From NCBI RefSeq assembly GCF_014696355.1, contig NZ_JACJQA010000039.1, positions 1-64,000 of the forward strand: a DNA stretch of 64,000 nt, given 5' to 3'. This document shows positions 48,871 through 54,096 of this stretch, one piece after another. The notes under the pieces were generated by a model. It saw only the letters and a list, made by a program, of their open reading frames with translations, did no database searches and was not told the DNA's origin. Both the position numbers and the translations under genes were made by a program. The stretch comes from Pseudanabaena sp. FACHB-1998 (lineage in GTDB: Bacteria > Cyanobacteriota > Cyanobacteriia > Pseudanabaenales > Pseudanabaenaceae). Each line of letters begins with the position of its first letter. The stretch's first letter is position 1.

Positions 48871-49000
48871 TTATGTAAGTCCCCCCAAACCTGTGGCGCA
48901 GGCGCAGCCTGCGCCACAGGTTTGGGGATTTTGTATTTAATTTCGCCTCGCTACTTAAGTTCGTAGAAATCTGCTTGGCAGGTTTCTACGAACTTACATA
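48871..49000. repeat. Nested palindromic element
   Basis: The outer inverted repeats TTATGTAAG and CTTACATAA enclose two hairpins: 48882-48930, with arms CCCCAAACCTGTGGCGCAGG and its complement, and 48957-48995, with arms AAGTTCGTAGAAA and TTTCTACGAACTT. It lies between two genes of the same direction. Confidence 0.65.
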
Positions 49001-49101: not shown

Positions 49102-51117
49102 ATGAAGAATTTAGGTCAAAGTAATTTATCAGCCCCCAGTCCATCTCAAGTTGACTGGGGAAATCTGATTGTGACGATTGTCTTGCGGATTAGAGAATCC
49201 TTGGAACTATTAACAATTTTACAAACAACTGCCGATGAGGTTCATCAACTGCTGGGCTGTGAGCGTGTATTGCTGTATCAGTTTGATCCAGACGGCAGGG
49301 GTGAGGTAGTGGTAGAGTCGGTTTCTGAGCCACAGTTTTCCTTGCTTGATCGCGTAGTGCGGGACTTCTGCTTTGAAGAAGCTGAATTAGAACCATTTCG
49401 TCAGGGACAGTTCTCAACAAGGACAGATATTGTCGCTGATCATAGTCTTACACCCTGCCATGCGGAGTTTCTCGCGAAGTATCAAATACGAGCAAATCTG
49501 GTCTGCCCGATATTTTATCAATCTCAGCTTTGGGGCTTTCTGATTGCCCACAATTGCACTGCACCACGTCAGTGGTTGCCTGACGAAATTAATGGATTAC
49601 AGCAGATTGCCGTCCATGTCGGTATTGCGCTCTATCAAGCTTCTTTGCTAGAGCAATTGCAAGTTTCTAAAGCATCCTTAGAAGCACAGGTTGCGTCTCG
49701 CACTTTTGACTTAGCCCAGCTAGCAGCCATTGTGAAATATTCTCAAGATGCGATCATTAGTAAAACTCTTAACGGTACTATTACTAGTTGGAATCAAGCA
49801 GCCGAGAATTTATTGGGATATAGCGCTCAAGATGTAATTGGTCAAAATGTATTAATGCTGATTCCTTTGGAGCGTCAATCTGAAGAATCTCACATTTTAT
49901 GGGCTATCCATCAAGGTGAAAGAATAGAAACTTACGCAACCCAACGCCTACATCAGAATGGCAGTCTCATAGATGTGGACTTGACGGTTTCGCCGATTAG
50001 GGATGAGAACGATAATGTGATTGGTGCATCGAAAATTTTGCGAGATATTCGCGATCGCAAACAAGTGGAACTCGATCTCAAACTTGCTAATCAGCGGCTT
50101 AGCGAGCATATTGCTGAACTAAACCAGCGCCATTGGGAAATGGTGAAGTTGAGTGAAATCATTGATTTTCTCCAAGCTTGTTTTACCGTAGACGAGGCTT
50201 GTAAGGCTCTGAGTCATTTGATAGAACCGCTCTTCCCCGAATGTGTAGGTGGGATTTTTCTCACCTGTGCTTCTCGCGATCACGTTGAGATGATGTCATT
50301 TTGGGGAGAAGCGCTTTATTCGGAAGTTGCTTTTTTGCCTAATAACTGTTGGGCTTTGCGCCGAGGTCGGGTGCATTTTGTAGATCACAGGTCAGGGCTA
50401 TATTGCAATCATATTTTGTTAGGTGAGGCGATCGATCTTACTCTTTGTATCCCCATGATTGCTCAGGGTGAAACCCTTGGTTTATTTCATCTCAGCACCA
50501 ATTATGCAAACGCTTTAACTGAATCGAAACAACAACTGGCGAAAACATTAGCAGAACAGGTGGGATTAGCGATCGCCAATCTCCGCTTACAAGAAACCCT
50601 GCAACAGCAAAGTATCCGCGATCCCCTCACAGGTTTATTTAACCGCCGCTATCTCCAAGAAACTTTTAACCAAGAACTATCCCGCGCCCAACGTCAGCAG
50701 CATCAAATTGGGGTAATCATGCTGGACATTGACCATTTCAAGAAGTTCAACGATACCTATGGACATGAGGCAGGTGACTACGTACTACAAACCGTGGGAA
50801 CCTTGCTCAAAAAATATGTGCGTGGTTCTGATATTGCCTGTCGCTACGGCGGCGAAGAACTAATCCTCGTTTTGCCAGATTCATCTTTGGAAATCGCTAG
50901 TAAACGTGCCGAAGAGATTCGAGAGGCGATCGCCAAAATCTCTCTAACCCATAATGCTCAACATCTAGGCAATCTGACGGCTTCTCTTGGTGTGGCAAGT
51001 TTCCCTCAACATGGCGCAACGGGTAGCGCCGTCATGCAATCCGCCGATGCTGCTCTCTATCGCGCCAAAGCCGCAGGGCGCAATCAAGTTTTGACAGCAC
51101 CACTGCCGAAAATTTAA
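49102..51117 (+). CDS. Cyanobacteriochrome-type GAF-PAS-GAF-GGDEF diguanylate cyclase
   Basis: This is a 671-residue protein. The first GAF domain (~35-185) contains both cysteines of DXCF cyanobacteriochromes: D88-F-C90-F and the canonical C119-H120, 29 residues apart. It also has LYQFDPDGRGEVVVESV. A PAS domain (~205-325), a second GAF (~345-505, without the bilin cysteines) and a GGDEF domain (~510-665) follow. The GGDEF active site is GGEEL (583-587) and an RxxD inhibitory site (RGSD) lies five residues upstream, so cyclase activity and product inhibition are expected. I infer a violet/blue-green light sensor controlling c-di-GMP. Bilin attachment is predicted, not shown. Confidence 0.88.
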   Translation: MKNLGQSNLSAPSPSQVDWGNLIVTIVLRIRESLELLTILQTTADEVHQLLGCERVLLYQFDPDGRGEVVVESVSEPQFSLLDRVVRDFCFEEAELEPFRQGQFSTRTDIVADHSLTPCHAEFLAKYQIRANLVCPIFYQSQLWGFLIAHNCTAPRQWLPDEINGLQQIAVHVGIALYQASLLEQLQVSKASLEAQVASRTFDLAQLAAIVKYSQDAIISKTLNGTITSWNQAAENLLGYSAQDVIGQNVLMLIPLERQSEESHILWAIHQGERIETYATQRLHQNGSLIDVDLTVSPIRDENDNVIGASKILRDIRDRKQVELDLKLANQRLSEHIAELNQRHWEMVKLSEIIDFLQACFTVDEACKALSHLIEPLFPECVGGIFLTCASRDHVEMMSFWGEALYSEVAFLPNNCWALRRGRVHFVDHRSGLYCNHILLGEAIDLTLCIPMIAQGETLGLFHLSTNYANALTESKQQLAKTLAEQVGLAIANLRLQETLQQQSIRDPLTGLFNRRYLQETFNQELSRAQRQQHQIGVIMLDIDHFKKFNDTYGHEAGDYVLQTVGTLLKKYVRGSDIACRYGGEELILVLPDSSLEIASKRAEEIREAIAKISLTHNAQHLGNLTASLGVASFPQHGATGSAVMQSADAALYRAKAAGRNQVLTAPLPKI

Positions 51118-53061: not shown

Positions 53062-54096
<1,035 letters not shown>

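Follow-up and report, generated by a model that had tools for sequence, protein, structure and literature searches.

A cyanobacteriochrome-type diguanylate cyclase of Pseudanabaena with a conserved Cys3-His GAF domain as a candidate second input

Domain order of the gene and its cyclase domain

The window analyzed here is a 64,000-nt stretch of DNA from Pseudanabaena sp. FACHB-1998 (contig NZ_JACJQA010000039.1, positions 1 to 64,000), which contains on its forward strand, at 49102..51117, an open reading frame that starts with ATG and encodes a protein of 671 amino acids. The reverse strand of the same segment is interrupted by many stops in the register that was translated. The translation and the domains detected with Pfam and NCBIfam defined the order of the protein as a cyanobacteriochrome (CBCR)-type GAF domain (GAF1), a PAS domain, a second GAF domain with a set of three cysteines and a histidine (GAF2, Cys3-His), and a GGDEF diguanylate cyclase domain. 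In the segment that separates this gene from the one upstream lies a GC-rich palindrome of 20 pairs (48883-48927), possibly a terminator or a copy of a dispersed repeat, and after it comes a second stretch that resembles a hairpin, near 48960-48995. On the opposite strand, the sequence at 53062-54054 resembles, by eye, the tetrapyrrole gene hemB, which encodes porphobilinogen synthase.

The GGDEF domain extends from residue 505 to residue 662 (50614..51087, forward strand; Pfam E 5.3e-54, TIGR00254 E 2e-59). Its conservation was counted in 33 of the 61 rows of our first alignment of relatives, of which 32 were used for the corresponding GAF2 counts, and the GGEE, DHFKKFND and K..GR sequences are invariant in all 33. 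The original prediction had pointed to GGEEL and RGSD sequences in a cyclase domain bearing an I-site, and both are present, GGEEL as the active-site loop at residues 583-587 (50848..50862) and RGSD as the predicted I-site at residues 574-577 (50821..50832). The fifth position of the loop, which is leucine in the window protein, is phenylalanine in 28 rows and leucine in five. R574 and D577, each conserved in 22 of the 33 rows, make up an intact RxxD motif five residues ahead of GGEEL, which is the predicted allosteric I-site. With both its catalytic residues and its I-site intact, the domain is predicted to be an active diguanylate cyclase.

Between GAF1 and the GGDEF domain, Pfam placed the PAS domain (residues 206-316, 49717..50049; E 5.7e-19) and GAF2. 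The PAS domain weakly matched FixL (1d06, E 1.7e-6), with the HEH stretch of FixL located opposite Ser, Glu and a gap. A heme of the FixL type in the PAS domain is not supported by this weak comparison. An AlphaFold2 model of residues 313-671 (mean pLDDT 94.3) predicted that a single continuous helix, formed by residues 474-505 (50521..50616; H162-193 of the model), runs from GAF2 into the GGDEF domain.

The cyanobacteriochrome-type GAF domain

GAF1 spans residues 35-177 (49204..49632), and its assignment as a DXCF cyanobacteriochrome-type bilin domain is based on Pfam, on matches to CBCR structures and on an alignment with 15 relatives. A DFCF and a CH cysteine had been noted 29 residues apart in this domain, and the translation agrees, with C90 in DFCF (residues 88-91, 49363..49374) and C119 in PCH (residues 118-120, 49453..49461), which is part of a TPCH sequence. 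When compared with the PDB, GAF1 matched CBCR and phytochrome GAF domains, among which 6oap was the best (E 1.4e-38). The chains of the DXCF-type TePixJ (3vv4, 4fof, 2m7u) matched with E values of about 1e-29, and miRFP670nano was also matched. The alignment set DFCF opposite DPCF of TePixJ and TPCH opposite TECH, and C119-H120, a canonical cysteine followed by histidine, was in register with the known CH. With GAF1 matching CBCR and phytochrome GAF domains of known structure, its motifs are, as judged from sequence, not a product of chance. C119 is the predicted canonical bilin-attachment cysteine, while C90 is the predicted second cysteine, which would bond C10 of the bilin in one photostate. 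At the level of sequence, both the proposed joining of a DXCF CBCR to a diguanylate cyclase and the proposed I-site have good support.

The 15 relatives with N-terminal CBCR GAF domains are 46-64% identical to GAF1 in a 16-row alignment. Fourteen of them are of the DXCF type, and the CBCR GAF domains precede the same GAF-GGDEF core. A pattern search of the fetched loci gave 27 distinct DXCF...C[HY] pairs, in which the spacing was 28 residues in 23 cases, 27 in three cases and 29 in one case, which is the window protein. Compared with its relatives, GAF1 of the window contains a one-residue insertion just ahead of the canonical cysteine, which is absent from the other 26 DXCF pairs, and in its EPQFS stretch, located before DXCF, it has phenylalanine where all 15 relatives have tryptophan. 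Because of the insertion and the Trp-to-Phe replacement, the normal photochemistry of GAF1 is uncertain and its colour is not predictable. Typical DXCF GAF domains are reported to isomerise phycocyanobilin to phycoviolobilin and to switch between blue and green states (PMC11284453).

The same two departures, the additional residue between the cysteines and the changed EPQFS stretch, could alternatively reflect a loss of normal bilin chemistry in this species, which would leave a protein controlled mainly by GAF2. However, both cysteines, the adjacent histidine and most of the CBCR core residues are kept, as is the 46-64% identity to relatives, which makes such a loss quite improbable. The genome also contains genes for bilin supply, as one ferredoxin-dependent bilin reductase (Fe_bilin_red) and two heme oxygenase genes were found over the cut-off. 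We consider it probable that GAF1 binds a bilin. Several further GAF1-like stretches, some with both cysteines, are present in the same genome; another GAF domain of this genome (L002, G000:C41 18120-19064) carries DNCF, whereas its canonical Cys-His is replaced by ESQ.

The original prediction went further and saw in this protein a direct light-to-c-di-GMP switch. Light as one of the inputs is supported, but the word "direct" is not, as about 330 residues separate GAF1 from the GGDEF domain; the claim is thus only partly upheld, because light would be just one of the inputs and would act from further away. The second GAF domain had been assigned an additional input, which holds as such, but this undersold the domain, since GAF2 together with GGDEF looks like the conserved core. 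Neither the unusual spacing of the GAF1 cysteines nor the Cys3-His set of GAF2 had been pointed out in the original prediction.

Conservation and spread of the Cys3-His GAF domain

GAF2 (residues 350-492, 50149..50577) was delimited as a member of a Cys3-His GAF family by alignments and by its AlphaFold2 model, and Pfam matched it with the GAF_2 model at residues 416-492. Its conserved set consists of C416, C435, H437 and C449, arranged as C-x18-C-x-H-x11-C. C416 (50347..50349) starts a short helix in a CWALRRGR sequence, C435-x-H437 (50404..50412) is located in the loop preceding a core strand, and C449 (50446..50448) belongs to the LCIP sequence of a core strand. When the whole protein served as the query, relatives across many phyla matched only the second half of it. 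The set was complete in 61/61 rows of the first alignment, but this count is flattered because the E-value cut of 1e-8 left out L135, a distant relative (the same gene as L222/L308, CCDC) in which the histidine is missing. A partial locus (L073) was also left out, and the 61 rows include repeats, with L111 and L134 overlapping and many Roseobacter rows close to each other. In an alignment of 28 rows chosen for spread, the invariant columns were the four Cys3-His residues and one glycine. The four residues also made up four of the seven invariant columns among 32 rows with 28-48% identity to the window domain, in which the other cysteines of window GAF2 vary.

To a profile of GAF2 alone, run against 291 genomes of the class to which the window belongs, 54 genomes responded with 87 matches, including the window. 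One protein per match was taken for the 86 non-window loci, some of whose fetched stretches overlap, and the set was complete (C-C-H-C) in 77 of them. The remaining nine were CCDC (three), CCQC (two), CCRC, CCLC, YGHC and YCGC (one each), where the letters of divergent rows were assigned by automatic alignment and may be displaced by one column. A GGDEF domain follows GAF2 in the same frame in 70/77 homologues with the full set and in 9/9 of those departing from it, which means that the Cys3-His site is not required in every such enzyme. The gap between GAF2 and GGDEF was 5-11 residues in 85/86 cyanobacterial pairs, a few of them from overlapping stretches.

Among the seven full-set homologues without GGDEF, L277 and L295 are truncated by a contig end, and L263 ends just inside the GGDEF start. 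The other four have frames of 342-372 residues; L258, L262 and L273 were scanned and consist of two GAF domains, and L243 reads alike. These frames combine an ordinary GAF domain with a Cys3-His GAF domain and adjoin a Cys3-His cyclase gene in genomes G046, G087 and G195 (L258, L273, L243, and also L262), and they look like sensor-only partners.

An N-terminal CBCR GAF domain with the canonical cysteine was found in at least 15 of the 77 full-set homologues, at least 14 of which are of the DXCF type (at least 16 and 15 with the window included). These are lower bounds, because the CBCR model, used with a cut of E 1e-8, may miss distant members and because the reading frame of L238 is cut upstream, although L130 reveals a DPCF GAF domain in that same long frame. 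In L278 and L280, the DXCF pairs lie outside the frame that carries the four residues. In a genome of the same genus, two Cys3-His cyclase genes are neighbours (L231 and L227, G002:C1 2061117-2066658), one with a GAF2-GGDEF part 86% identical to that of the window and PAS domains ahead of it, and the other with a DXCF CBCR ahead, which suggests front-end swapping. GAF2-GGDEF looks like a conserved core, with the photosensor apparently one of several interchangeable front ends.

The family is found in Cyanobacteriota, Pseudomonadota, Deinococcota, Chloroflexota and others, including many non-photosynthetic bacteria. When GAF2 alone was compared by tblastn with 72,556 plasmid records, 48 matched, and the annotated ones were mostly labelled as diguanylate cyclases. 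In the 15 plasmid records examined (the 33 left out include Klebsiella and Legionella), the set was complete in 12, CCPC in one and CCHE in two, and GGDEF followed in all 15. Both matched stretches on contigs of the viral collection (2/2) have the full set and GGDEF. Hence, the GAF2 domain is not tied to photosynthesis. The plasmid matches include NZ_CP046157.1 of Leptolyngbya sp. BL0902, and the two CCHE sets belong to alphaproteobacterial plasmid cyclases of Microvirga and Sphingomonas (L323, L324), which are natural variants with the last cysteine changed to glutamate. Two rhizobial plasmid copies are located near katG (L328, Sinorhizobium sp. B11) and near bcsN (L321, Neorhizobium), two cases hinting at links to oxidative stress or cellulose.

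It could also be considered that GAF2 is a degenerate bilin-binding domain, because a weak profile alignment places C416 opposite the DXCF cysteine and H437 opposite the histidine that follows the canonical cysteine. However, GAF2 showed no significant similarity to CBCRs in this profile comparison with GAF1 (probability 3.7), and its matches to bilin GAF domains in the PDB were weak. The four residues are also present in Deinococcus, rhizobia, Roseobacters, Vibrio and others, groups that are not known for CBCRs. This explanation is therefore highly improbable.

A possible metal or redox site in GAF2 and a proposed two-input model

GAF2 was modelled alone, because GGDEF domains dominated the first fold comparison. 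The AlphaFold2 model (pLDDT 92.7, pTM 0.88) was most similar to PtsP GAF domains (3ci6, 3trc; Z 18.1-18.2) and to free methionine-R-sulfoxide reductases (fRMsr; 3mmh, 1vhm, 3rfb, 3ksf; Z 17.0-18.1), with rmsd values of 2.3-3.2 over 145-158 residues, Z scores overall of about 17-18, and sequence identities of 10-16%; Foldseek gave the same kind of match. With the ligand pocket placed according to the known topology of GAF folds, C416 at the helix start, C435 and H437 in the loop and C449 in the core strand would, at the level of secondary structure, border this pocket.

No close solved structure was found for the GAF2 family in a profile search of the PDB, where the matches were all weak and of a generic GAF type, with a best E value of 1.4e-4. 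In Pfam the 28 rows matched generic GAF models, with a weak SpoVT_C match in four and no dedicated model, and in NCBIfam the window domain had no match, and two weak matches among 32 rows were nothing specific. The full-text literature searched, mostly without subscription papers, did not contain a description of the Cys3-His GAF domain in the parts available, including those of PMC8846402, PMC13075795, PMC10581220, PMC6949291, PMC13421787, PMC5871770, PMC8294551, PMC2994820, PMC4223177 and PMC11284453. A review of the c-di-GMP network, as far as its text was available, names no Fe-S sensor, and the terms "Fe-S" and "iron-sulfur" are absent from it. The disulfides reported for a GAF-GGDEF-EAL protein of M. 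tuberculosis are a different matter, as they join distant cysteines of that protein and do not involve the present Cys3-His set.

The departures from the set bear on its possible function. The commonest ones change the fourth position of the Cys3-His set, that is H437 to D, Q, R, L or P (CCDC, CCQC, CCRC, CCLC, CCPC), or replace C449 with glutamate (CCHE). If GAF2 were a metal-free thiol switch, which forms a disulfide or reacts with oxidants or sulfur species as in fRMsr, the high rank of the fRMsr structures among its fold matches (Z 17.0-18.1) would be explained, and fRMsr indeed uses three conserved GAF cysteines. However, PtsP GAF domains rank equally high and the identity is only 10-16%, which suggests that the fRMsr match may reflect the GAF fold only. 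The conserved histidine and the Cys-to-Glu changes suit metal ligation better, and the changes at the histidine likewise suggest that a ligand set fits better than a disulfide. We therefore regard the thiol switch as unlikely.

A simpler explanation is that the protein is a plain photoreceptor of the SesA type, in which GAF1 is the sole sensor, GAF2 and PAS play a passive part as spacers or in dimerisation, and a structural zinc is bound by the Cys3-His residues. Such sets commonly bind structural zinc, and in the model GAF2 belongs to the region of the coupling helix, whose stability would be important; the reported example of SesA also indicates that a DXCF GAF domain can control a GGDEF domain. 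On the other hand, the replacement of H437 by Q, R, L or P in several homologues is unusual for a structural zinc ligand, and two divergent homologues (L208/L294 and L217/L303) lack two of the four residues together. Moreover, the same GAF2 core follows a wide variety of front ends and is present in many non-photosynthetic bacteria, as would be expected of an independent sensor. The passive role of GAF2 appears as unlikely as the thiol switch. A metal or Fe-S centre in GAF2 is, on sequence grounds, moderately probable, and with the set conserved and such a centre favoured, GAF2 is proposed as a redox or metal input beside the cyclase.

The model which we infer for bilin binding, the cofactor and signal of GAF2, the direction in which light acts and the order of gating is that of a soluble diguanylate cyclase with two inputs. 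Phycocyanobilin would be attached to GAF1 at C119, with C90 as a reversible second linkage, and blue/green-type light would alter its state. The light-induced change would be passed through PAS and a helical linker to GAF2. There, C416/C435/H437/C449 would bind a small cofactor of inorganic or redox type, for which an Fe-S cluster or some other metal ion is the most likely candidate. The combined state would reach GGDEF through the single continuous helix, and product feedback at the RGSD site would restrict the output, so that light colour would determine c-di-GMP synthesis only as far as the state of GAF2 permits. We consider it reasonably likely that two inputs control this cyclase, with GAF1 responding to light and GAF2 gating the output in response to a metal, Fe-S or thiol-redox signal, although the gating of light by GAF2 is the least certain step. 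More tentatively, the Cys3-His GAF domain might be a redox sensor with an Fe-S or metal centre that is a widespread component of diguanylate cyclases in several phyla. In cyanobacteria, DXCF photoreceptors would then have been placed in front of it, giving enzymes that combine light colour with the redox or metal state of the cell. For many GAF domains of c-di-GMP enzymes the signal is not known, and a four-residue site makes such an input testable. As a single polypeptide would receive both light and the second signal, one purified protein could serve to test how cyanobacteria combine light colour with metabolic state in the decision to settle or to move.

Among known systems, SesA has a CBS-type region, and its bilin GAF domain adjoins GGDEF without an intervening sensor. 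Unlike SesA, the window protein has the PAS and Cys3-His GAF domains between photosensor and cyclase and a spacing of 29 between the bilin cysteines, and no CBS-type region was found in it. What the window protein has in common with SesA/Tlr0924 of Thermosynechococcus is a DXCF bilin GAF domain joined to GGDEF with a conserved RXXD I-site. SesA is reported to be activated by blue light and to make c-di-GMP in a colour-dependent manner, with product inhibition at RXXD measured (PMC5871770). GAF1 also resembles the TePixJ GAF domain (3vv4, 4fof/4glq, 2m7u), as DXCF and the canonical Cys-His are in the same aligned places, but TePixJ is a methyl-accepting chemotaxis protein with one residue fewer between the cysteines.

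The likeness of GAF2 to the GAF domain of Hik2 and of the chloroplast sensor kinase (CSK), which is reported to bind a redox-active [3Fe-4S] cluster with at least one cysteine ligand, is one of precedent, as a candidate Fe-S site would be located in a GAF domain. Unlike these proteins, which have a histidine kinase output, the window protein combines a clearly defined C-x18-C-x-H-x11-C set with a GGDEF output. The structural similarity to fRMsr is predicted to be high and the GAF fold is shared, but fRMsr is a stand-alone enzyme, 10-16% identical to GAF2. Its conserved cysteines are spaced otherwise, and it has no matching conserved histidine. The CZB zinc domain of some diguanylate cyclases is reported also to link a Cys/His metal site to GGDEF, but it is a helical bundle with three histidines and one cysteine, whereas GAF2 is a GAF domain with three cysteines and one histidine. 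Hence, the combination of photoreceptor and cyclase is already known from SesA, and the Cys3-His GAF domain is the part of this protein for which we found no earlier description.
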